Both the position numbers and the translations under genes were made by a program. 64,000 nucleotides of DNA from the IMG/VR virus record IMGVR_UViG_3300048438_000153, positions 211,103 to 275,102 of that record, one strand, 5' to 3'. The number at the start of each line of letters is the position of its first letter. Positions within the stretch are counted from its first letter, which is position 1. This stretch comes from a virus. Below are positions 37,217 to 51,353 of this stretch, in pieces. Under the pieces are notes generated by a model, which searched no databases, had not been told where the DNA came from, and saw only the letters and a list, made by a program, of their open reading frames with translations.

Positions 37217-37283
37217 CAAATAGCCTCCTTAGTTAGTATACACACAGTATGTGGATGTAAGACTTATCGAAAGGAGATTACAT

Positions 37284-37934
37284 ATGATACTTGGATTAGA
37301 CCCCTCTCTCCGAAACTTCGGATGGGTTCTCATGGAAGATGACGGCATCTTCTTAGACAAAGGAATGATGTCTACAGAAGCGAGCATGGTCTTCGTTGAG
37401 AGGTATGTCTTTCTCAGAGAAGGTCTGCGAGAAGTCGTTCAGAAAGTACGAGCAGATCACCCTGATAAGACGCTCAGAGTAGGTATCGAGTCACCCATCT
37501 TCAACGACCTTTACTCTGAGGGTATGTACGGACTCTTTCTCTACTCTAACGAAGCTCTCATGCTAGAGAAGTGTGACACGGTGTACTTGTCGCCCAATCA
37601 AGTCAAAGCTCACGCCGCTTCTTTCTTAAATCGACCGAAAGGGTGGAAGATGCAGAAAGGAGACATGGTGGACGCGGTTAAGGAAGCCACTGAGGGTCAG
37701 GGCGCGAAGAGGTGGAATCACCACCAAGCAGACGCTTATTGGGTCGGGCGCACTGCGGGTCGGTTTTGGCAACTGACCGAGGGTACGATCACCCGAGATG
37801 ATCTCTCAGACTTAGAGCGTAGGCAATTCACTGATTATGAGAAATATGTGCGCGGAAAGAAGGCGGGCAAGACCAAAAGGAAAGGCATAACCTACAAGGA
37901 AAACGACAGATATTTCCGTTGGTCTGAAGATTAA
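37284..37934 (+). CDS. RuvC-like Holliday junction resolvase
   Basis: The RNase H-like resolvase fold is indicated by ILGLDPSLRNFGW with catalytic D6, VGIESP with E69, and HHQADAYWVGR with D150. ATG 37284 has AAAGGAG seven bases upstream; the open frame to 37251 has no ribosome site. The C-terminus is basic (KKAGKTKRKG), suited to DNA binding. It heads the recombination block with recA just downstream and should resolve branched DNA before packaging. Confidence 0.8.
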   Translation: MILGLDPSLRNFGWVLMEDDGIFLDKGMMSTEASMVFVERYVFLREGLREVVQKVRADHPDKTLRVGIESPIFNDLYSEGMYGLFLYSNEALMLEKCDTVYLSPNQVKAHAASFLNRPKGWKMQKGDMVDAVKEATEGQGAKRWNHHQADAYWVGRTAGRFWQLTEGTITRDDLSDLERRQFTDYEKYVRGKKAGKTKRKGITYKENDRYFRWSED

Positions 37935-38017: not shown

Positions 38018-39181
38018 ATGGCTAAAGGAAAGAGAAAGACAGATTTAATGGCGGCGGCAAAAGTCGTAGCAGGCGTTTTGAAAGAGGATCATGTTGTTTC
38101 TCTCGACCCAAACAGTCTTAAAGAAAGCAGACCTCACGTTTCAACAGGGTCAGTAGCTCTCGATTATCTCATCGGGGGGAAAGAGAACGAACATGGAGTG
38201 CGCCCATGTCCAGGAATACCGAAAGGAAATATCACAAACCTTTACGGCTTGGCGGGTGCGGGAAAGACTACAATCGCGCTTCAGACTGCCGCTCAGGTGT
38301 GCGCGGAGGGCGGTACTTGTGTTTATATTGATTGGGAGCACGAAGTTGACCATAGATACGCCTCAGTCTTAGGTGTTCCTGTTTCTGACCCCTCCAAGTT
38401 TCTCCTGATTCAGCCTGATACTCTTGAGGCGGGACTGCGCTACATCTTTACCATGACTGATGCGGGAGTAGACCTCATCGTCATCGACTCTGTGGGCGCG
38501 GCTGTTCCGAAAGCCGTCTTTGAAAAGAATGACGATGGCCCTACGCCCGTAGGTCTTAACGCTCGTCTTTGGAGCACCTACCTCCCTAAGATCAAGAGTA
38601 AGATCAAATCCTCTGAGACTGCAATAATAGGCATTTCTCAGCTCCGTGAGTCCATCGGGGGAATGTCCTTCGCAGGCCCTAAGAAGATCCCTCAAGGTGG
38701 TAAGGCTTGGACGTTCTACTCGACCCTTCAGATTATGCTTCGCGTAGTCGGAAAAGAGAAAGGAAAACAGTGGGACGGTATGCAAGGAAAGGTCGTGGAA
38801 ACCGTACTCGGTACTGCGGTGAGGGCGAAGCTCGACAAGTGCAAGGTTTCTGACTCGGCGCACAAGGAAGTTGATTTCTATCTGATGTCGGGAGAAGGTG
38901 TCGATAACGTCCGTACTGTCCTTGAGCTTGGCGTTAAGACAGGCGTGGTAAGCAAGAAGGGATCTTGGTTCTCTTGGACGGGGAGTGAGGGTGAGGTTCG
39001 AGGTCAAGGTCTTAACTCTTTCAAGGATATGCTCACCGACGATCACGTCTCTCAGATTTTCGCTCAAGTTAAGCCGTTCCTCGCTGACCCGAAGAAAGCG
39101 AAGAGCGAAGAAGCGCCGAGCCTTGAGGATCTCGCAAATCTCGGAGGCGATGAGGATGACGATCTTCTAGGGGATTTGTGA
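38018..39181 (+). CDS. recA: RecA/UvsX recombinase
   Basis: RecA-type strand exchange ATPase. Walker A is GLAGAGKT (77-84), followed by CVYIDWEHEVDHRYA (the catalytic Glu region) and LIVIDSVGAAVPKAVFE (Walker B and loop L1). The ISQLRESIGGMSFAGPKKIP stretch is loop L2-like, with the family's IPQGGKAW form. The C-terminal region from about 340 is acidic (GGDEDDDLLGDL), like bacterial RecA tails. Length 387. AGGAAAGGA precedes the start. It heads the recA-sbcC-sbcD block and overlaps the next gene by GTGA. Confidence 0.93.
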   Translation: MAKGKRKTDLMAAAKVVAGVLKEDHVVSLDPNSLKESRPHVSTGSVALDYLIGGKENEHGVRPCPGIPKGNITNLYGLAGAGKTTIALQTAAQVCAEGGTCVYIDWEHEVDHRYASVLGVPVSDPSKFLLIQPDTLEAGLRYIFTMTDAGVDLIVIDSVGAAVPKAVFEKNDDGPTPVGLNARLWSTYLPKIKSKIKSSETAIIGISQLRESIGGMSFAGPKKIPQGGKAWTFYSTLQIMLRVVGKEKGKQWDGMQGKVVETVLGTAVRAKLDKCKVSDSAHKEVDFYLMSGEGVDNVRTVLELGVKTGVVSKKGSWFSWTGSEGEVRGQGLNSFKDMLTDDHVSQIFAQVKPFLADPKKAKSEEAPSLEDLANLGGDEDDDLLGDL

Positions 39182-39438
39182 AAGCGTATTTCTTATTGAT
39201 CCTTCTCATCTTCACGATGATCGTTAATGCGTATAAAGCGAAGCCTGATGAAAAGGTAACTTTGTATGCATGTAGAGACAGCCGTGAGCGCCTTTTTTTC
39301 GTGGGCGAGAAAGAACACTACCGAGACTTTCTGAAGAGAGGTGTATTTTCTAAGTCCTCTTGCAGATCGGCTGATATTAGTGTTCATAAGTGGATGAGCT
39401 TAAGAAGAAGGCGTCGCAAGTTGCCTCACCCACTCTAA
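39178..39438 (+). CDS. Small exported or anchored protein, 86 aa
   Basis: The GTG at 39178 overlaps the recA stop. The N-terminus MKAYFLLILLIFTMIVNAYK is a clear signal peptide or membrane anchor. The rest is basic with cysteines in YACRD and KSSCRS, which could form one disulphide in the periplasm, and ends in an Arg-rich stretch. No family recognised. It is odd for an exported protein to be coupled between recA and sbcC. Confidence 0.6.
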   Translation: MKAYFLLILLIFTMIVNAYKAKPDEKVTLYACRDSRERLFFVGEKEHYRDFLKRGVFSKSSCRSADISVHKWMSLRRRRRKLPHPL

Positions 39439-39452
39439 GAAAGAGAGAAACC

Positions 39453-40583
39453 ATGAAGATCAAAGTAGAGAACTTTCAGTCTATCAAGAACACAGAGATA
39501 GAGGTTAAAGGACTCACTGTGATCACAGGTGAGAACAGCATCGGAAAGTCGGCTCTCGCTCGCGCTTTCAATGGGGTGTTCACGAATCTTAGAGGTAATG
39601 CTCATGTGAGGAATGGCGAGTCTCATTCTTCTGTGTGCGTCTCCTTTGAAGATGGGAATGAAGTCCTATGGGAGAAGGGCAAGAAGGTCAATCGGTATGT
39701 TGTAAATGGGAAAGAGATCGCTAAGGTTGGATCGGGTGTCCCTGACGAAGTTAAGAGTCTAGGTGTCAGCGGTGTAGAGGTCGATGGGAAAGAGCTGTAC
39801 CCTCAGATCGCGAAGCAGTTTCAAAACATCTTTCTCTTAGACCTCCCTCCAAGCGCACTGTCCTCTGCGCTCTCTGATGTTAATGTGATCCAACAGCTTG
39901 AGAAAGCATCTGCAAAAGCGCGATCAGAAGTCCGAGATATCAAGTCGAGAATGAAGGTCAAGAGAGAAGACCTAACGCAAGCTCAGAGTAACCTCAATGC
40001 CTATGTGGGTTTTGACTACTCCAAAGTCCTTTCTTACGAGCAAGCTGAGCAGAGAAAGAACGAGACTGAGGCTCTTCTTCTTAAAGCGGAGAAGCTCGCA
40101 GAAAAAAGAGCCAAGATCACCTCGATCATCGACGCTCTTTCTGAAGCAGATCGCGTGACTTTACCTAAGCTCGACCAATCGAAGTTCAGTCACCTAGATG
40201 AAGCCGTAACCGCGAGAAGAAAGAAAAACAAGATAGAGAACCTTATCTTAATCATTGAGGTCGGACTCGATAGTTACTCCGCTCCTGTGACTCCAAACGT
40301 GAGAGACACCTCAGAGATAGAGAGGCTAAGGGCTCGAAGGGTCAAGCTCAGTCGCGCAGTAGGGGTGCTTTCCGATATAGCAAAAGCACCTGAGCTGATC
40401 CCGATGGAGGACCACTCTGAGACGATCAATATGCTAGAGAGAAAGAAGAAGCTCGGTTGGGGTATCGTCCTCGTTGAGAAAGAGATTCGGACTCTCGGAA
40501 AGGAAAGAACAATGGTTCAGAAGAAGATTACAGAGGGCATCTGCCCTGTCTGTCTGAGAGAGGGAGACTCATGCCTAAGCTAG
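39453..40583 (+). CDS. sbcC: SbcC/Rad50 N-terminal half with zinc-hook end
   Basis: MKIKVENFQSIKNTEIEVKG leads into Walker A GENSIGKS (26-33), as in Rad50/SbcC N-lobes, and NIFLLDLPPSALSSALSD is the following family block. A coiled coil runs from about 160 to 350. The protein then ends, nine residues after C364-P-V-C367, the CXXC zinc hook that normally sits at the middle of SbcC. The signature and Walker B lobe is missing here and appears as a separate gene at 45026. ATG 39453 is chosen as the first codon of the conserved start. Overlaps sbcD by 13 bases. Confidence 0.82.
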   Translation: MKIKVENFQSIKNTEIEVKGLTVITGENSIGKSALARAFNGVFTNLRGNAHVRNGESHSSVCVSFEDGNEVLWEKGKKVNRYVVNGKEIAKVGSGVPDEVKSLGVSGVEVDGKELYPQIAKQFQNIFLLDLPPSALSSALSDVNVIQQLEKASAKARSEVRDIKSRMKVKREDLTQAQSNLNAYVGFDYSKVLSYEQAEQRKNETEALLLKAEKLAEKRAKITSIIDALSEADRVTLPKLDQSKFSHLDEAVTARRKKNKIENLILIIEVGLDSYSAPVTPNVRDTSEIERLRARRVKLSRAVGVLSDIAKAPELIPMEDHSETINMLERKKKLGWGIVLVEKEIRTLGKERTMVQKKITEGICPVCLREGDSCLS

Positions 40584-41545
40584 TGTGGCGAACAGATGTT
40601 CATATGGGAGATAGGACACCGCGCCGACGCACAGGAGATTGGTGCGCCGATGTGGTTAAGAAACTCAAATGGGTTGGAGAGAAAGCGAAAGAGATAGGAG
40701 CTGACGCTGTGATTGATGGGGGCGATTTCTTCGACGTTAAGTCGCCCGCTAAAAACTCCCACAACCTTGTTAGAAAGAGCTGTGAGACTCACTCAGAATA
40801 CCCCTGTCCTGTCTATGCGCTCGTTGGGAATCATGATGTTAAGTATGGCAACATCGACTACCTACCTGAGCAACCTCTAGGTGTCCTCTTCTCTTCGGGT
40901 GTGTTCAAGCAGTTCGGAGACGAGAAAGAAATAATCTTAGAGGGTGATGGAGTCAAAGTCAGAGTGGTCGGAATCCCTTATCATGGGGTGGAGTATGACT
41001 TCGATAGGCTCTCATCTATCACTAAGAAAGATGAGGACTACTTGCTCGTGGCTTGTCATCTTCTAGCGAGGCGCGGAAAGACAGGCTCGATGTTTGAGGG
41101 TGAGGATATCATCGGGTATGACTTTCTGAACTCCATACAGGGAGTTGATGGTTGGTTCTTTGGTCATTGGCATAAGGATCAGGGCATAAAGACTCTTAAG
41201 AACGGCTCTACAGTAGTCAATGTGGGTTCTTTAACGAGAGGGTCGCTCCACCTAGACGACTTAGATCGGAAGCCTTGTGTAGTAGAGGTTGAAGCCACGA
41301 AAGAAGGGATCAGATTCACGCGCCACAACGTACCCGTGAGGGATACAAAGGATGCTTTTAAGATAGAGGAAGCGGTGAGAGAGAATGAGGACTCAGATCG
41401 CATGATAGAGATTGTTGAGAAGATGAAGGCTGTAGCTACATCAGGTTGGTCGGGCATGACGCTCATTGATAAGGTCAGCGGAATGTCTCTCTCAAATGAA
41501 GTGAGGGAGAAGGTCATATCTTACTTGGAGGAGACAGCGAAATGA
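40571..41545 (+). CDS. sbcD: SbcD/Mre11-type nuclease
   Basis: This is a calcineurin-like phosphoesterase that processes DNA ends with SbcC. All metal motifs are present: D9-x-H11, G51-D52, G-N87-H88-D89, H163 in VACHLL, and G198-H199-W-H201. Length 324 is normal for phage members. It overlaps the SbcC N-half and is joined by ATGA to the next gene, so the nuclease and N-lobe should be made in matched amounts. Confidence 0.88.
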   Translation: MPKLVWRTDVHMGDRTPRRRTGDWCADVVKKLKWVGEKAKEIGADAVIDGGDFFDVKSPAKNSHNLVRKSCETHSEYPCPVYALVGNHDVKYGNIDYLPEQPLGVLFSSGVFKQFGDEKEIILEGDGVKVRVVGIPYHGVEYDFDRLSSITKKDEDYLLVACHLLARRGKTGSMFEGEDIIGYDFLNSIQGVDGWFFGHWHKDQGIKTLKNGSTVVNVGSLTRGSLHLDDLDRKPCVVEVEATKEGIRFTRHNVPVRDTKDAFKIEEAVRENEDSDRMIEIVEKMKAVATSGWSGMTLIDKVSGMSLSNEVREKVISYLEETAK

Positions 41546-42384
41546 AGAATCTATTTACTTTCTTAATATTGGTTTCTATCCCTTTGAACGCCCATGCTTT
41601 TGAGAAGAGGCTCGAAGAGTGCAAGGCGAGCTATCAGAGGTTCTTTCCCAAGTGCATCAGCTCCTTTAATCAGAAGAGATGCTTGTGGGAAGGTCTAGAG
41701 GCACTAAGAAATAGTGATGTCTTCAGTTACAAGCCTCAAGACAATGACCCCATTACTGAGGTCAGCAGAGCTCGATACAAGACCACTCGCGAGTATAAGG
41801 TTCGCCTGAAAGCCTTAAAGAGAGACAGGGCAAGCCTACCTCTCAAAACCTTCTGCTTCTTAGAGCCGAATCTAGTTGACTACACCGATGACATCAGAGC
41901 GTGGCGCTATGACAGAAAGAAAAAAAAGCTAAGGGCTTTGCTCAGAGGAGTTAATCAGCAAGTGGACACCGCGTCCTCAGAGTTATCAGGCTTCGTCGCT
42001 ACGAACCTTATGCCTGTAGCAGACCTCGACGAGCCTGTTTTCTTTTCGGTGGGTCGCTTTATTGGAGGCGGTCTTGAAGGACTGTTTCTCACGCACACTA
42101 AGATCTTCTTATTCTTCAAGATCAAGTCGGTACGTCTCAAGTCTCACCCCAACTACGAACACCCTCGCTATTTGTCTAAGAATGAGCTAAAGGAAGAAGC
42201 ACTACGGGTGGGCATCTCTGTCAAAGAGATGAGAGACTTTCTTGGGAAAGAACACAGCCCCACTACGAAGCACATTGAAGTCAGAGTAACTGACCTCCTC
42301 CTATGTGAAGATCTGTACCACTCAGACCAAGACTGCTTTGATCCTTTCCCACTCCTAGTCAGCTCAAGAGGGAGGATTTACTGA
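41542..42384 (+). CDS. Exported protein with Sec signal peptide, 280 aa
   Basis: The N-terminus MKNLFTFLILVSIPLNAHAF is a textbook signal peptide with an A-H-A cleavage site. The mature part has several cysteines (C28, C38, C47, then CEDLYHSDQDCF near the end) and a central hydrophobic stretch (FIGGGLEGLFLTHTKIFLFF). No family is recognised. It is coupled to sbcD by ATGA, although SbcD is cytosolic. Possible roles are envelope modification or superinfection exclusion; nothing in the sequence decides. Confidence 0.65.
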   Translation: MKNLFTFLILVSIPLNAHAFEKRLEECKASYQRFFPKCISSFNQKRCLWEGLEALRNSDVFSYKPQDNDPITEVSRARYKTTREYKVRLKALKRDRASLPLKTFCFLEPNLVDYTDDIRAWRYDRKKKKLRALLRGVNQQVDTASSELSGFVATNLMPVADLDEPVFFSVGRFIGGGLEGLFLTHTKIFLFFKIKSVRLKSHPNYEHPRYLSKNELKEEALRVGISVKEMRDFLGKEHSPTTKHIEVRVTDLLLCEDLYHSDQDCFDPFPLLVSSRGRIY

Positions 42385-42400
42385 TCTGTCTTACCTTGTT

Positions 42401-42408
42401 CCGATATG
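42401..42408 (+). promoter_or_regulatory. CCGATATG promoter-like box
   Basis: CCGATATGAGTAG lies about 40 bases before the nuclease gene start, in the only gap between the exported protein and that gene. It matches the dnaX upstream box at 30888 over ATATGAGTAG. Confidence 0.4.
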
Positions 42409-42445
42409 AGTAGTCCTAGATTCGGTATTGTAGGAGGTAACAGAT

Positions 42446-43429
42446 TTGAATCAGGACGACGAGATGAAGAACCTATATTGGTCACACGTTAAGATGATGA
42501 GGGAATGTCCTCAGAAGTTCCTTTGGCATAAGGGTCACCCACTCCATGATCTCGGAGCTGGACAAGGAAAGCGAAAGCCACTCCCCCCTGAAGATCAGAG
42601 ACAGTCTGAGCATCACCTATTGATGGGTAGTGTGCTTTCTAAGGTGGTTGAAGACCTTTATAACCATGAGCTTTGGAAAGAACCTAAGAATCTCCCTCAA
42701 AAGGTTGAGGAGATCGCTCGGAAAGAGTTCGTTTTTGAGGAACAGAGGCGCTACTGTCTGTGGACGTACATGACGCGAGAAGACTGCATCGACATCTGCG
42801 TGAAAGGTGCGCTCAACTACCTCAGAATAATGAAAGAGAACCGCTTGCTCGGAGTGTGGAACAAGTCAGAGCTTAAGATGACACCCTCAGTGAACAAGTA
42901 TTTCAATGCGTCAGGGATCGCGGATCTTGTGTATCGAGACAAACAAGATCAAATCCATATTCTTGATGGAAAGAACGCCTCAACGCCAGGGAAATATGAG
43001 GATGAGGATCAGCTCAGGTGGTATGCGCTCTGTTTCCGTTTACAGTATGGTCAGATGCCTCATCGTCTCGGTTTCTTTTACTTTCGATATCCTTCAGACA
43101 ATCCACCTGGAAACCTCAGCCACGTTGATGAGAAATACAGAGAGGATTGGACAGGGTTCATTGAGGTAGACTGCGATATCAGCGACATTAAGAGACTCGC
43201 GAAAGAAGCGGTAGAGACAAGCAAGGCGATCCACAGAGGTGTGTTCGAGCCCAACCCTGTCCCGAAGCACTGCACAATGTGTGTCTACGAGTCTGTATGC
43301 GAAGAGCGCCAAGCCCAAAAGCAAAGAAACGCAGCCAAGAGAGGGTTAAGAAGAACAAGCACACCCGACCCACTTAAAGACAGGGGAGAAACAGGATTCT
43401 TAGATCTGTCTTTTGGTGTGAAAAAATAA
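42446..43429 (+). CDS. Cas4/RecB-like PD-(D/E)XK nuclease with 4 Cys
   Basis: Core nuclease motifs are G-I-A-D in NASGIADLVYRD and D-G-K in HILDGKNAS, followed by a Q-x-x-x-Y-like DQLRWYALCF. Four cysteines, C21 near the start and C276, C279, C285 near the end, are placed as in the iron-sulphur Cas4/AddB family. The TTG at 42446 is favoured by AGGAGG eight bases upstream; an ATG at 42464 is an alternative. Surrounding genes are recombination factors, so it probably makes single-stranded ends for RecA. No Cas genes or CRISPR array accompany it. Confidence 0.78.
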   Translation: MNQDDEMKNLYWSHVKMMRECPQKFLWHKGHPLHDLGAGQGKRKPLPPEDQRQSEHHLLMGSVLSKVVEDLYNHELWKEPKNLPQKVEEIARKEFVFEEQRRYCLWTYMTREDCIDICVKGALNYLRIMKENRLLGVWNKSELKMTPSVNKYFNASGIADLVYRDKQDQIHILDGKNASTPGKYEDEDQLRWYALCFRLQYGQMPHRLGFFYFRYPSDNPPGNLSHVDEKYREDWTGFIEVDCDISDIKRLAKEAVETSKAIHRGVFEPNPVPKHCTMCVYESVCEERQAQKQRNAAKRGLRRTSTPDPLKDRGETGFLDLSFGVKK

Positions 43430-43448
43430 GCTCAGCCCTCCTTATTTT

Positions 43449-43456
43449 CTGATATA
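43449..43456 (+). promoter_or_regulatory. CTGATATA promoter-like box before clamp unit
   Basis: CTGATATA lies 37 bases before the coiled-coil gene that starts the clamp/SbcC C-half unit. It is identical to the boxes at 8292 and 37965. Confidence 0.42.
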
Positions 43457-43492
43457 TCCTAGCTCCCCTAATCTCGGAGAAAGGAAAGACTT

Positions 43493-43765
43493 ATGTCTGA
43501 ACCTACAGTCCAAGACCTAGTAGAAAGACGAGACGAAATCGAGAGCCGTAAAGCCAAACTCAGCGGTAAGCTAGAGTCTGCCAAATCTGCTCTCGGAGAG
43601 ATCGACACTCGCCTTTCTGAAATGGGTCTTGACCCCTCAGACCTAGACGCTGAAATAGAGCGCCTGAGATCAGAGCGCGACCTCGCACTCGCTAAATTTA
43701 AACAAGAGCTTGAAGAAGCTGAAGAAATCATCACCACCATAGAAGACAGGATTAGAAACCTATGA
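43493..43765 (+). CDS. Coiled-coil protein, 90 aa
   Basis: Nearly the whole protein is heptad-patterned helix (VQDLVERRDEIESRKAKLSG ... LEEAEEIITTIEDRIRNL) with a short break at GLDPSD. No family can be assigned. It lies between the SbcC N-half with its hook and the SbcC C-half, and its length with the C-half's 75-residue coil roughly equals the N-half's coil. It might be a third SbcC piece completing the return arm; this is speculative. It overlaps dnaN by ATGA. Confidence 0.6.
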   Translation: MSEPTVQDLVERRDEIESRKAKLSGKLESAKSALGEIDTRLSEMGLDPSDLDAEIERLRSERDLALAKFKQELEEAEEIITTIEDRIRNL

Positions 43766-45021
43766 TGAAGATATCTAAGAATGACTTGAAGGAAACTCTT
43801 TCAATCGCACAGGCGACGCTCGGAAGCGGGCCTGACATCACCTCACATTTCTTATTTGAAAGCGTGAGTGGCGAAGTTTTCGTTTCTGCGTGTAACCCAC
43901 CGCGCATTTACTCCTCTATTCCGCTCAAGGGAGCAAAAGTCGATGAGGTTGAGAATGACGATGGTGAGACAGAGAGCGCCTTTCAAGCATTTACTATTGA
44001 AGGTAAGCGCGTGCTTCAAGCGATTGATGCAGTAGAAGGTCTTCTTTCTATCTCTATTTCAGAGGGTCAGGTTTCTATCGTCTCCGACAAGGGAACTGTC
44101 GATCTGTCTAGTCTCGATCCTACAGTGTTTCCCCCTTGGAGAGATATGCTCAAGGACGCTCAGAAGCAGTCTGAAGTCCCTTCAGGTGTGCTCCATGACA
44201 CTCTCCTCATCTCTAAGCCTTTCGCGTCTACCGATGAGGCTCGACGCCCTGAGCTCGCTCAGGTCTACGTCAAAGATGGTATGGCTTTCTCGTGTGATGG
44301 GTTTGGTCTTTCTATGGCTAAGTCTGAGGGCTTCAAAGACCTAGAAGTCAAGTTCCACCTCAAGGACGTGTCTCCCGCAGTCAAGTTCTTAAAGGCTCAT
44401 GAGGGTCACTCTGTTGAGGTTTCTAAGTCAGACAAGGCAGTGTTTCTCAAAGCTGAGGACGGGGCAATCTTCGGTCTTATGGATGTACCATTTGATATGC
44501 CTACAGTTATCACTCAGAAATACATGGATGCGTTTGATTGGACACCTCGCCGTGTATGGCGTATTAAGAAGGCTGACTTCTCCAACGCGCTTAAGTTTCT
44601 TTCTTCGGGCGCTGATGGTTCCAACATGAAAGTAAAGCTCATTGACGCGGAGGCCGAGACTCTTTCTCCCCCTCGCCTAGAGATGGATGCCTACAACGGA
44701 CGCAGTGTAATCTCGTATAACCTCGACCCTGTTAGTCTGAGCGTGGAGCTTACAGATGACTTTGACCTCAACACGATTGAAGACATCGAGGAGCGCCTGT
44801 ATGCCTCACGTCTGCTTGAGGATAAGAAAGGCGAGACAGAGGGAGAGGACATTGACTCTTTCCACTTTAATCTGAGCTACATGAAGCGAAGCCTAGATGT
44901 GACTTCCGATATAATCACATTCGGCTGTAACCGAGAGGGAGAGAAGCGCGGTTATATGCTCTTCAAGCAATCGACCTCTAGCGGTGTCGAAATCGTGTCA
45001 ATCTTAGGTTGGATGTTATAA
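43762..45021 (+). CDS. dnaN: Beta sliding clamp-like processivity factor
   Basis: The sequence resembles DnaN rather than the T4-type clamp. Domain 2 starts with LHDTLLISKPFASTDEARRP and ELAQVYVKDGMAFSCDGFGL, matching the bacterial pattern of F-A-x-S-x-D-E-x-R-P followed by a ligand strand. Repeated strand-helix elements (ISKNDLKETLSIAQATL at the start and KKADFSNALKFLSSG in domain 3) fit three similar domains. Length 419 is a little above bacterial 366. With DnaX, HolA-like and HolB-like genes it completes a clamp system. Confidence 0.72.
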   Translation: MMKISKNDLKETLSIAQATLGSGPDITSHFLFESVSGEVFVSACNPPRIYSSIPLKGAKVDEVENDDGETESAFQAFTIEGKRVLQAIDAVEGLLSISISEGQVSIVSDKGTVDLSSLDPTVFPPWRDMLKDAQKQSEVPSGVLHDTLLISKPFASTDEARRPELAQVYVKDGMAFSCDGFGLSMAKSEGFKDLEVKFHLKDVSPAVKFLKAHEGHSVEVSKSDKAVFLKAEDGAIFGLMDVPFDMPTVITQKYMDAFDWTPRRVWRIKKADFSNALKFLSSGADGSNMKVKLIDAEAETLSPPRLEMDAYNGRSVISYNLDPVSLSVELTDDFDLNTIEDIEERLYASRLLEDKKGETEGEDIDSFHFNLSYMKRSLDVTSDIITFGCNREGEKRGYMLFKQSTSSGVEIVSILGWML

Positions 45022-45025
45022 GCTA

Positions 45026-45643
45026 ATGTATACACTCAAGGAACGCTTTCTTAAGGTAAAGACCCTTCAAGAAACAGAGCAGAAGAAAGTCAATAACCTC
45101 GATCTTGAGATCGCGATCCTTGAGTCAGACTTAGATGTCAAACAACAAGCACAGGGAGTGCTTGACCTCCTCGCAGAGAAAGAAGTCGAGGAGGGTGTTA
45201 AGACGTATATCGCACTACTTGATGAGGGGTTGAAAGCAATCTTCCCTGAGCAAGATATCAGTCAGGTAGCTGAGATCACAAAGATCAGAGGAAAAGTCTC
45301 TGTCCGTCTTAAAACGGTCGTTAAGGGCAAGGATGGTATCGAAGTAGAGGGAGAGGGGCTTGACACATTTGGAGGCGCTGTGAGTACAGTACAGAGCCTC
45401 CTGTTGCGCGTCTCGCTCTTACTTAAGAGAGGTCTTAGACCTGTCCTCGTTCTCGATGAGACTTTCCCCGCCGTAGATGAGAATCGCGTGGAACTCCTCG
45501 TCGATTTCTTAAAGGCTCTATGTTCAAGATTGGACATGGATATATTATGTGTTTCCCACAACACCTCTCTAGCCGATAGTGCTGACCGATCATACAAGGT
45601 CAAAGCTACGAAAAACGGAGCGGTGTTCACCGAGATGAGTTGA
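45026..45643 (+). CDS. SbcC/Rad50 C-terminal half (signature and Walker B)
   Basis: After a 75-residue coiled coil, the protein shows a degenerate ABC signature TFGGAVSTVQ (114-123), then Walker B VLVLDETFPAVDENR with D144-E145, the D-loop, and H178 in LCVSHNT (H-loop). No Walker A is present. It is therefore the C-lobe that should pair with the Walker A half at 39453 to form a working Rad50/SbcC ATPase. It follows dnaN by four bases. Confidence 0.8.
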   Translation: MYTLKERFLKVKTLQETEQKKVNNLDLEIAILESDLDVKQQAQGVLDLLAEKEVEEGVKTYIALLDEGLKAIFPEQDISQVAEITKIRGKVSVRLKTVVKGKDGIEVEGEGLDTFGGAVSTVQSLLLRVSLLLKRGLRPVLVLDETFPAVDENRVELLVDFLKALCSRLDMDILCVSHNTSLADSADRSYKVKATKNGAVFTEMS

Positions 45644-47702: not shown

Positions 47703-50700
47703 TCAGTAGAGGCTGAGCGCCTCGTCGATCTCTGCGTCAGTCATATCGTCATCCTCGATGGTGACATCCTCTGAAAGAATCTCAAGGGCTGTCGCGAGCT
47801 TCGTTGAACCCGTCTTAGAGCCACAATCAAGACCCATCTTCCCGATGAACTCTGAAGGCTCAAGCTCCTCTCCCTTTTCATTCTGCTCGTAAGAAAGAAC
47901 CGTGACGCTCTTCATACCGCGAGTGACTGCGACGTAGGCGAGCTTCTGCTCTTGTTCTGCTTTATCAGCCTGAGCCTGAGCTTCGTTAGCGTGGATGATA
48001 GGGTCGAAATCCACTTTGTCTGAGGGGAACTTGCCTTCGATCATCGGGACGTAAAGGTTCGGAACTTCAAGACCCTTCCAACCGTGAACGGTGTCGAGGA
48101 CAACAGCATCCTCATCGCTCTTGGCGAACCCTCTCTTAGCCTTGCTCTTCATGACCTTAATCTTATCAAGAGCTTCTTGGACGCTCTCATGCTTATTGAA
48201 GAGAGATCGCAGAGAAGGGAGAGGAGCAAGGTTGTACTCTTCAGGGTCGCCTTGACTGTCGCCTTCAGATTCGACGCTCGGCTCAATTTCACCGCCTCCG
48301 TCAGAAACCATCTTGCTAAGGTACTCCGTGTCAGAAGCCTTCACCTTTGAAGCGAGGATTTCATGGAGTTTCTTTCCATTAGGTCCTTCTACATAGAAGT
48401 CTTCGTCTCCCTCATAGATGGGCTTATATCCGAGAGCGATGTCGAAAGCCTCTTTAGGTCTAGCCGTACCCTCACCACCCCAATGAGCAAGCATCTCCAA
48501 ATACTTAAAAATCTCGTTCTTCTTCTTATCTTTAGAATCAATGCCAAGAGCTTCTAAAAGGGTGTAGAAGTTATCTTCTTGACCCTCGTCAACTTGATCC
48601 ATGATATGATCAGGCAGATCTTCAACTTTTACTTTAAAAGAGTCAGCCACTTTTCCGAGCGTCTTTCCGTTGAAAGAGCTTGGGAAGTCGTACCCGAAAT
48701 CTCTCCATGAGTTGAAGAGAGCACTCATTCTGAGAGAAACGTCTGAGCTTGACGCGCCCATTACTCTGATGATTGACTTTGTAGAGGTGTGGTTGAAGGG
48801 ATCTACGCCTGATACGAAAGGGATGTCTTGCTCAAGTAAAGCGAGGGCGTATGGGATGACCTCAGCGTTGGTTCGGCAAGCGATACCGAAATCGCTAGGT
48901 GTGCTCGTCTGAACACTACTAGTGATAGCTGTCTTAATGTCTGAAGCGAGGCTACGAGCAGACTCATTCGCGTTCTTCTTTCTTTCGTGCTTAATAGAGT
49001 CTTGACTACCCTTGAAAGAAGCGACGCAAGAAAGCCCTAGACCCTTACTCGCGAGTCGGTTGGCTGCGCTGACAATGTTCTCACCTGAGCGGAAGTTAAG
49101 CCCGATAGACATAAGATCGAAAGAGCCTTGATTAGTCTTAGACTTACTCGTGAACTCTTGTGAGGTCGCGCCTCGGAAGCCGTAGATACTCTGATTCTCA
49201 TCGCCGATGAGAGTGAAGCTCGTACCCTGAGTCGCTACAGGGGCTTTCACAGGAACAGGCTTAGAGTTAGAACCCTTAGCTGAGTATGTTCCCGCAATCA
49301 TGCCGAAGAAAGCGTGCTGGACAAGGTTCAAGTCTTGAGCTTCGTCAACAATGATGTGCTTGTATTGAGCGCGGATCTCATCAAGGTTTTTCTTATAAGA
49401 AAGAAGCCTCGTAGCTTTGATCAGAACATCGTCGAAGTCCATTCGGTCGTCAATGTTTAAGAGATGCTGATAAGCACCATAGACTCTCGCTTGCATCTCA
49501 AAGAGATCACCCTTACCTGAGACTTTTACCCAAGCCTCAGAAGGGGATAGCATACGCGCCTTACATTTAGTAATGAAGAGCTGACATTTCTTAGCTGAAG
49601 GGATCTTAATCTCAGCCCCTTGACTTCCCATCCCCATGATGCCCCACCAAGCAGACTCAGTAGATGCTTTCTTTCCTTTCTTCTCCACTGCACTAGGGAA
49701 AGAATAAGAGTCGATTTTCTCTTGGTTTCCGCCGAAAGCTCTCGCCAAGATTTTCTCGCCTCTCGACGTTTTCAAGATAGAGTCAATGAGGCTGACGTTC
49801 TCGGTAGTTACGCTCCCTACTCCGTTTTTCTTATAGCTCTCTCTAATACCCAAGACGACAGAAGACACGTTTTCTTTCTCGTATCCTTTCTCCTCACGCC
49901 AATTCTCAACGGTGTAGATCATAGAAAGAACACGGATGTCGTCTCTTTCTGCACTCGCACTCATTGGAGTCATCTTCTCAGACCAAAAGCTATCACTCTT
50001 AGGTCTTGAGCCTGAATTGGGCGTGTCTTTCGCGAGCTTAACTGCTCTCTGTACGAAAGAAAGAAGATCGTACTCATCAACTATTTTCTTAACTCCCGCA
50101 GAAGGGTCAAAGCGGTTGATAAACTCAATCGCAATTGAGTGAGTGGTGCGCCCAATCGTAGTGTACTCAATGTTCTTGAGTGATCTACCTACGGCGTCCT
50201 CGATCTTTTTCTTAAGGTCACTAGCAGACTTCCTAGAGAAAGAACAAGCAAGGATAGAGTAAGGGTCTGCTCCCTTGTCTTTGATGAGGTGAGCTACCTT
50301 ACCTGAGAGAACACGGGTCTTACCTGATCCCGCGCCCGCAGAAATGATAGTCATCCCGTCAGAAAGCATCGCGTCCTCTTGCTCTCTCGTAAGACCTAGA
50401 TCGCCACCGATATCAGTTTTATGCTCAGCGTCTGTGACGAGAACCTTAGCCTCATTCAAGACCTTGATAACCTCTACGATAGAGCTATCTAGATTGCCCT
50501 CAGTCTGCGCCTCTTCGATAAGGTTGTTCTGCTCTCTAAGAATCTCGGGGAGAGAAGCTCCGCTTTCCCTATTCTCTTTGAGAGACTTAAGTAGACCCCG
50601 AACCTCGGCAGATTCGCTCGCAGTCTTCGCAGGAGAGCCATACGCTTCGGCTACTTTCTGCATGGACTTGATTAAGGCTTTAGACCTTCCATCGGGAGGA

Positions 50701-51353
50701 GTCTTAGTGCTGACGTTAACGATATCTGTTAAAGTTGGCGCATCGGTCAATGAGCGAAGCTCTTTCACCCTAGCGTTGTCGAAAACGTCTTTGACCTCTT
50801 GAAGATCAGTGTTTTTAATCTTATTGAGCGTCACATGAGTTGCCCTCGCAGCGTATGCGATTTCTCTCACATTGTTCAGATTTCCTCTGACGGTCTTGAG
50901 GAGGCGACTGATCTGTGTTCTCGCGCTGTTGTTACTAATGGCGCTGATGAGGTCTCTTTGAACATCGAAAAACACGTTGTGCTGTACGTCGAGCTTCTTA
51001 ATGCTATCTTGAAGATCAGAAACCGCCTCAGAAAGAGATGGGTCAGGGTTGTTGTGTGAAGCAACAATCGCATCGTAGTAAACTTTAAGAGACTTGACGA
51101 TAAGCACCATTCTCTTCTGCTGATTCTGATCAACTTTGGTAGGCTTGGGCATACTCTTGAGAGATTTGATCTGAGCCTTGTTCAGACCAACCTCTAATCT
51201 AAGAGTGTTTTCGCCTGTGACACCTTTCTCAAGGAGAGCGTATGCCGACTCGATTGAGTCAATCATGCGGTATTCAATGGCATCTTCGATCAACCTAATG
51301 GCGGTTATGTAGTTTTCGCGGTTCGTAGCCGCTTCTTTCTTAAGATTGGACAT
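47703..51353 (-). CDS. UvrD/PcrA-like SF1 helicase with long N-terminus
   Basis: Motifs appear in order: LTREQEDAM (Q motif), SAGAGSGKTRVL (Walker A near 341), ACSFSRKSASDLKKKI (Ia), IIVDEAQDLNLVQ (II), FTLIGDENQSIYGFRG (III), SIGLNFRSGENIV (IV), VHGWKGLEVPNLYVPMIEG (V) and LAYVAVTRGMKSV (VI). The first 330 residues are predicted helical and not found in standard UvrD. Total 1216 residues against about 720. It may couple unwinding to a phage-specific partner. GAGGGG precedes the ATG. Confidence 0.9.
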   Translation of the reverse strand: MSNLKKEAATNRENYITAIRLIEDAIEYRMIDSIESAYALLEKGVTGENTLRLEVGLNKAQIKSLKSMPKPTKVDQNQQKRMVLIVKSLKVYYDAIVASHNNPDPSLSEAVSDLQDSIKKLDVQHNVFFDVQRDLISAISNNSARTQISRLLKTVRGNLNNVREIAYAARATHVTLNKIKNTDLQEVKDVFDNARVKELRSLTDAPTLTDIVNVSTKTPPDGRSKALIKSMQKVAEAYGSPAKTASESAEVRGLLKSLKENRESGASLPEILREQNNLIEEAQTEGNLDSSIVEVIKVLNEAKVLVTDAEHKTDIGGDLGLTREQEDAMLSDGMTIISAGAGSGKTRVLSGKVAHLIKDKGADPYSILACSFSRKSASDLKKKIEDAVGRSLKNIEYTTIGRTTHSIAIEFINRFDPSAGVKKIVDEYDLLSFVQRAVKLAKDTPNSGSRPKSDSFWSEKMTPMSASAERDDIRVLSMIYTVENWREEKGYEKENVSSVVLGIRESYKKNGVGSVTTENVSLIDSILKTSRGEKILARAFGGNQEKIDSYSFPSAVEKKGKKASTESAWWGIMGMGSQGAEIKIPSAKKCQLFITKCKARMLSPSEAWVKVSGKGDLFEMQARVYGAYQHLLNIDDRMDFDDVLIKATRLLSYKKNLDEIRAQYKHIIVDEAQDLNLVQHAFFGMIAGTYSAKGSNSKPVPVKAPVATQGTSFTLIGDENQSIYGFRGATSQEFTSKSKTNQGSFDLMSIGLNFRSGENIVSAANRLASKGLGLSCVASFKGSQDSIKHERKKNANESARSLASDIKTAITSSVQTSTPSDFGIACRTNAEVIPYALALLEQDIPFVSGVDPFNHTSTKSIIRVMGASSSDVSLRMSALFNSWRDFGYDFPSSFNGKTLGKVADSFKVKVEDLPDHIMDQVDEGQEDNFYTLLEALGIDSKDKKKNEIFKYLEMLAHWGGEGTARPKEAFDIALGYKPIYEGDEDFYVEGPNGKKLHEILASKVKASDTEYLSKMVSDGGGEIEPSVESEGDSQGDPEEYNLAPLPSLRSLFNKHESVQEALDKIKVMKSKAKRGFAKSDEDAVVLDTVHGWKGLEVPNLYVPMIEGKFPSDKVDFDPIIHANEAQAQADKAEQEQKLAYVAVTRGMKSVTVLSYEQNEKGEELEPSEFIGKMGLDCGSKTGSTKLATALEILSEDVTIEDDDMTDAEIDEALSLY

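Follow-up and report, generated by a model that had tools for sequence, protein, structure and literature searches.

The DNA analysed here (“the window”) is a stretch of 64,000 nucleotides, positions 211,103 to 275,102 of the 275,102-base virus record IMGVR_UViG_3300048438_000153 of IMG/VR. Its + strand carries a module in which SbcC (Rad50), an ATPase that acts in the processing of DNA breaks, is encoded by two separate genes, termed N-half and C-half below. The order of the genes is RuvC-like resolvase, RecA/UvsX, N-half, SbcD, PD-(D/E)XK exonuclease, a coiled-coil protein of 90 amino acids (aa; “the coil”), sliding clamp, and C-half (Table 1). The start of the N-half was assigned to the ATG at 39453, the start common to all homologues; the open frame itself opens at a GTG at 39390. 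As an initial annotation of this stretch had stated, SbcD overlaps the N-half: its start precedes the N-half end by 13 bases. The annotation was also right that the C-half is a separate protein of 205 aa at 45026, while the distance between the halves is 4.4 kilobases (kb), not five. By its own account, a full-length SbcC elsewhere in the genome would have spoken against a split SbcC. Neither this nor a second AAA_23 protein was found in the 275-kb record, which may lack part of the genome. The genomes of Tunturi_5 and Magritte, both complete, did not yield a fused SbcC either.

Table 1. Genes and motifs of the split SbcC module and related permuted genes. Positions are those of the window unless a record label (L) precedes them; E, E-value.
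Feature	Position	Strand	Remarks
RuvC-like resolvase	37251..37934	+	phrog_159 E 2.3e-14; context gene
RecA/UvsX recombinase	38018..39181	+	phrog_97 E 1.9e-55; context gene
SbcC N-half, 376 aa: Rad50-type lobe I, Walker A, helical arm, C-terminal zinc-hook motif	39453..40583	+	
Walker A GENSIGKS, residues 26-33	39528..39551	+	G26, G31, K32, S33 invariant in 50 homologues
Predicted zinc-hook motif CPVC, residues 364-367	40542..40553	+	C364, C367 invariant in 50 homologues; stop nine residues on
SbcD/Mre11-like nuclease, 324 aa	40571..41545	+	Metallophos E 2.3e-11; SbcD-like phrog_100 E 4e-11
PD-(D/E)XK exonuclease, upstream of coil	42446..43429	+	PF12705 E 1.1e-15; context gene
Two-helix coiled-coil small subunit (putative), 90 aa, G-L-D-P break in centre	43493..43765	+	
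Sliding clamp, between coil and C-half	43762..45021	+	phrog_947 E 1.7e-14; context, not proposed subunit
SbcC C-half, 205 aa: ~70-residue helix and Rad50-type lobe II	45026..45643	+	
Degenerate ABC signature LDTFGGAV, F in place of SGG serine	45359..45382	+	position F34/R13/M2/H1 in 50 homologues, S never
Walker B VLVLDETF	45443..45466	+	D144, E145 in 50/50
H-loop histidine H178	45557..45559	+	50/50
Permuted C-N SbcC genes	L242:6842-8749, L243:6809-8686, L246:3507-5477, L247:3492-5132, L248:3330-5243, L249:3501-5399		annotated AAA family ATPase or hypothetical

The N-half matches AAA_23 (E 3.6e-9), and its lobe I has matches to Rad50, SMC, and RecF in the Protein Data Bank (PDB). For comparison, wider sets of 54 diverse N-halves and 50 diverse C-halves were used. 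The Walker A pattern GxNNxGKS and the N-F-x-S motif at the start (NFQS) are kept in the N-half homologues, and all 54 match phrog_16465, annotated “exonuclease”. In 53 of the 54, a CxxC lies 2-22 residues from the C-terminus, with the form CPxC in 51 of these. The profile of the 54 N-halves aligns with residues 4-62 of 112 of the Pyrococcus furiosus Rad50 hook structure 1l8d (E 5e-5) and with residues 7-80 of 140 of 6zff (E 3e-5). It thus covers the ascending helix and the hook of these structures and little beyond, placing the cut at the hook, where the initial annotation had put it. Judged by sequence, the motif would correspond to the CxxC of the zinc hook, with zinc binding and a position at the tip of the arm predicted. 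A hook carried by only one of the two chains is not the departure from Rad50 that had been suggested, because canonical Rad50 likewise has one CxxC per protomer. The N-half of Cetobacterium somerae plasmid p3 (L245:5442-6537) is present in two overlapping frames of 252 and 123 aa.

The C-half was modelled with AlphaFold2 as one helix (residues 3-72) followed by the lobe II fold, with a mean predicted local distance difference test score (pLDDT) of 86.4. Foldseek pairs the model with SMC and Rad50 heads, and the chains of the P. furiosus Rad50 C-lobe come first in a single-sequence search. With the profile of the 50 C-half homologues, the top 11 PDB matches are all Rad50 (3qkr_B, E 1.1e-14), and transporters of the ATP-binding cassette (ABC) type follow from 1.8e-8. 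These results place the 205-aa protein with Rad50 and not with another ABC family, a possibility that the initial annotation had left for structure prediction to decide. All 50 homologues are standalone genes and match phrog_15167, annotated “ATPase”; the two halves thus sit in two separate PHROGs families. A scan of the genome contigs with an alignment of the actinophage-type C-half gave no confirmed match.

The N-half, SbcD, and C-half are separate genes in 11 of 12 related records, and an SbcD/Mre11 partner is likewise present in the same genome in 11 of the 12; the exception is a 56-kb fragment. The distance between the pieces ranges from a few kb to more than 100 kb among these records. 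An artefact of assembly or annotation, i.e. a frameshift or a rearranged contig, has a negligible chance of being the explanation: nothing was found in its favour, and the same split is seen in complete genomes of isolates as well as in dozens of contigs of independent origin. In jumbo phages the halves are encoded between 4.4 kb and over 100 kb apart, which would also be compatible with two functionally unrelated ABC fragments, e.g. a RecF/OLD-like ATPase and a separate lobe. However, both halves are present wherever the record is long enough, they are adjacent in Bacillota, neither of them holds a full ATP site, and the permuted fusions described below largely refute this explanation, so that we regard it as very unlikely.

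In several genomes the pieces lie side by side. The Sutcliffiella locus, two Paenibacillus loci, and the Brevibacillus locus have the colinear order N-half (465-494 aa), coil (75-77 aa), C-half (about 213 aa), followed by SbcD. The coil also lies directly between the two halves in phage vB_BboS-125 (gp34) and in a linear plasmid of B. velezensis, where SbcD again lies downstream. Microcystis phage Mvi-JY20 has N-half, SbcD, coil, and C-half in overlapping genes, with a weak coil match (E 0.04). The N-half of Tunturi_5 has a coil-like gene (a weak match, E 0.002) directly after it, whereas the clamp and the C-half lie at a distance of about 110 kb. On the Cetobacterium plasmid p3, an IscB gene separates the C-half from SbcD.

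The initial annotation had proposed a survey of relatives for a fused gene. No N-to-C fusion was found in the split family, but fusions of two other kinds exist. Three Bacillota megaplasmids encode SbcD fused to the N-half (801-937 aa), followed by the coil and then the C-half. In the Pseudomonas megaplasmids pMPPla107 and FeN3W, the C-half is fused ahead of the N-half in a permuted C-N order (625-635 aa), and CPTC stands at the extreme C-terminus. Relatives were found in 21 plasmid records of Pseudomonadota, including Variovorax, Vibrio, Alteromonas, Bosea, and Methylorubrum. Both kinds of fusion indicate that N-half, C-half, and SbcD act together, and the C-N fusions show that no chain leads from the hook to lobe II even where both halves are part of one protein. 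A small open reading frame with a helix-break-helix plan lies just upstream of the permuted gene in all six members examined. In Methylorubrum it matches the hidden Markov model of the coil (E 1e-4), while the other five resemble the coil by architecture alone. The permuted gene of Variovorax is followed by an annotated metallophosphoesterase. The gene after the permuted SbcC of the Pseudomonas megaplasmids (L242:8742-9650, L243:8679-9575) looks like a degenerate SbcD, with GD-like motifs by eye and no Pfam match. A tree built from 26 lobe pairs unites the SbcD-N fusions in one clade (100/100), which groups with the split members of Bacillota (96/95). Both fused outgroups have very long branches in this tree, which resolves neither its deep root nor where the permuted clade belongs.

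An orthologue of the coil is present in 41 of the 42 contigs carrying an N-half, the exception having little flanking sequence. Distant members have the same helix-break-helix plan, and the order coil, clamp, C-half is kept in related jumbo phages. The coil is thus a conserved third piece of the split SbcC system; this conservation and the colinear order in Bacillota bear out the earlier assignment of the coil to the system. The coil and the N-terminal helix of the C-half gave a weak profile match (62%; possible coiled-coil bias). That the coil is a copy of the base of the N-half arm was rejected, as the profile match was not significant.

We consider it probable that these genes encode a four-subunit phage SbcCD (Mre11-Rad50) of N-half, C-half, coil, and SbcD that serves recombination-dependent replication. 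The N-half, with lobe I, arm, and terminal hook, and the C-half, with lobe II and the helix of ~70 residues, would assemble in trans into one ABC head, and SbcD would dock at the root of the arm, as in Mre11-Rad50. The most likely place of the coil is against the arm, where its 90 residues in two helices would make up, wholly or in part, for the missing descending strand. A pair of protomers would form via their CPxC hooks and via ATP-dependent engagement of the heads, and head engagement would gate the SbcD nuclease at DNA ends. The phage RecA/UvsX, RuvC, the PD-(D/E)XK exonuclease, and the clamp would be partners in recombination-dependent replication. In SPN3US, the SbcC gene is an essential one, and recombination and replication are both deficient in T4 mutants of gp46/gp47 (PMC5105663); the recombination genes next to the split SbcC in the window point to the same role.

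Several observations weigh against this assembly, and the first concern the coil. Homology of the coil to Rad50 was not detectable, and solved structures match it as generic coiled coils only. In jumbo phages its gene has the exonuclease on one side and, downstream, the clamp on the other; in the window the 3′ end of its gene overlaps the clamp start (43765 versus 43762), and in Magritte it abuts the nuclease gp244. It could therefore serve these proteins instead, i.e. be an accessory of the clamp or the exonuclease that is carried along by the operon structure, next to a machine of N-half, C-half, and SbcD. In contrast, no clamp or exonuclease is annotated or recognised alongside the coil where it occurs with N-half, SbcD, or C-half in Bacillota, the B. 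velezensis plasmid, Tunturi_5, and Mvi-JY20, and a coil-like gene lies directly 5′ of the C-N gene in permuted systems. The coil thus accompanies the SbcCD genes and not the clamp, and we regard an accessory role as unlikely.

A further point is the length of the arm. The initial annotation had observed that the coil and the helix of the C-half add up to nearly the coiled coil of the N-half, and had conceived of a three-part return arm. The sum agrees roughly in the window (about 160 versus 219 residues) and is not conserved across the family. N-half length is 362-500 aa in the contigs compared, a variation of ~140 residues in steps of ~41 residues that stem from a repeated stretch of the arm. 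The coil (78-129 aa as the longest open frame, mostly 84-109) and the C-half (mostly 203-238 aa) stay constant, and N-half length correlates with neither (r = 0.07 each). A length-matched return arm was therefore rejected, and the agreement in the window is a coincidence of this genome. Because coil and C-half do not follow the N-half, the repeats need no length-matched partner in trans. They occupy N-half residues ~230-320 (40140-40412 in the window), each consisting of a helix and a V.VPD-like break, in about 2 to 5 copies; homologues with longer arms include those of L230 and L191, and AlphaFold2 did not resolve the repeat region, with a pLDDT of about 50-86. A likeness of the N-half arm to leucine-rich-repeat proteins was judged to be an artefact of leucine spacing.

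The AlphaFold2 prediction of the N-half, made like the others for the monomer, has a predicted template modelling score of 0.35 and shows the arm as five helices with breaks. The single hook-less N-half among the 54, that of Microbacterium phage Magritte (L037:4989-6041), has lost the CPxC motif; coil, SbcD, and C-half are retained in this phage. The last point is the signature serine, the loss of which the initial annotation overlooked. It is absent from every C-half of the set (Table 1), whereas the fused SbcC proteins of T4 and EP_H11 retain it, and head engagement may thus differ. In P. furiosus Rad50, S793R abolishes ATP binding and dimerisation, the serine being needed for ATP-driven dimerisation, and the T4 substitutions S471A/R/M alter DNA-ATP coupling (PMC7247530). 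These effects are compatible with the split ATPase being a degenerate, non-cycling scaffold, which would bind nucleotide weakly and tether DNA ends without ATP-gated cleavage. We regard such a scaffold as rather unlikely, since Walker A, the D and E of Walker B, and the H-loop are invariant, arguing for hydrolysis under selection and favouring a changed but working ATP cycle over a dead one. Anti-phage defence of the SMC/ATPase type (Lamassu, Gabija, Mads) was also considered and rejected: the PADLOC matches (best 2.6e-9) were weak and of a kind that ABC ATPases give in general, and SbcD had none.

Beyond the four-subunit SbcCD as such, we tentatively propose that it might form a distinct branch of Rad50/SbcC. 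In this branch, no chain would run from the hook back to the head, and any link of lobe II to lobe I would be at the front of the latter. The hook would end the chain freely at the C-terminus of an arm that has ~41-residue repeats in variable number and is completed by the separate coil; the heads would work without the signature serine, and arm and hook would signal to the head by a non-canonical route.

With SbcCD and Mre11-Rad50 (E. coli, P. furiosus, and gp46-gp47 of T4), the split system shares both ABC lobes, the CPxC hook motif, a predicted helical arm, the SbcD/Mre11 partner, and the recombination context. It differs in that SbcC is divided at the hook into two chains and has a small coil subunit in addition, and that the signature serine is missing. 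By its sequences, it is related to Mre11-Rad50 and would probably function in a similar manner; it departs from it in the serine and in the chain: the single polypeptide of Rad50 (N-lobe, arm, hook, arm, C-lobe) is divided into two chains in the window and in all split homologues. T4 gp46, for comparison, is one chain of 560 aa; its hook lies at 288, and its signature reads SEGE. In laboratory two-chain Rad50 heads (chains A and B of 1f2t, 1ii8, and 3qkr), lobes I and II are likewise separate chains, which form one Rad50 head. These are engineered truncations without the hook and most of the arm, whereas the split in the window is natural and keeps both.

The Mre11/Rad50 fusion R555 of Mimivirus has SbcD ahead of the SbcC N-lobe, like the Bacillota megaplasmid members; the accessible part of its description reports SbcD joined to SbcC, and a separate C-half or coil is not described there (PMC3175470). 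According to that paper, one P-loop segment of SbcC is missing from the SbcD-SbcC fusions of Anaerostipes and of Bacillus phage 0305phi8-36, which may be the same split, noticed but left unexplained. Jumbo phages offer a parallel in a different enzyme: their DNA polymerase III alpha and their RNA polymerase subunits are split, a core enzyme likewise being distributed over chains from distant genes (PMC7824862). In its accessible sections, that jumbo-phage survey describes SbcC as practically universal and does not mention a split form. A search of open-access full text, with subscription papers and preprints outside its range, found no description of a split SbcC. Many phages and megaplasmids have these parts again, whether dispersed, fused, or rearranged, which makes split SbcC a stable and, as it appears, undescribed form of a universal repair machine.

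Two neighbouring genes of the window deserve mention. At the C-terminus of the PD-(D/E)XK exonuclease, the cysteines of CTMCVYESVC form a C-x2-C-x5-C-like pattern. An iron-sulphur cluster could be bound there, as it is in nucleases of the Cas4/AddB type. Just past the module, on the - strand (47703-51353), a protein of 1216 aa resembles UvrD-like helicases of superfamily 1, by eye only.

Models of Rad50 assume a continuous hairpin arm by which head and hook communicate the ATP state. In phages of very different hosts, this hairpin is cut at the hook, part of it is apparently moved to another protein, and in plasmids the chain is permuted. Such natural cuts and permutations suggest that the return strand, the hook, head engagement, and the signature serine are separable in natural proteins, and they would make the control of the nuclease by arm and hook testable. 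They also offer a role for many phage and plasmid genes that are now annotated as “exonuclease”, “ATPase”, or hypothetical.

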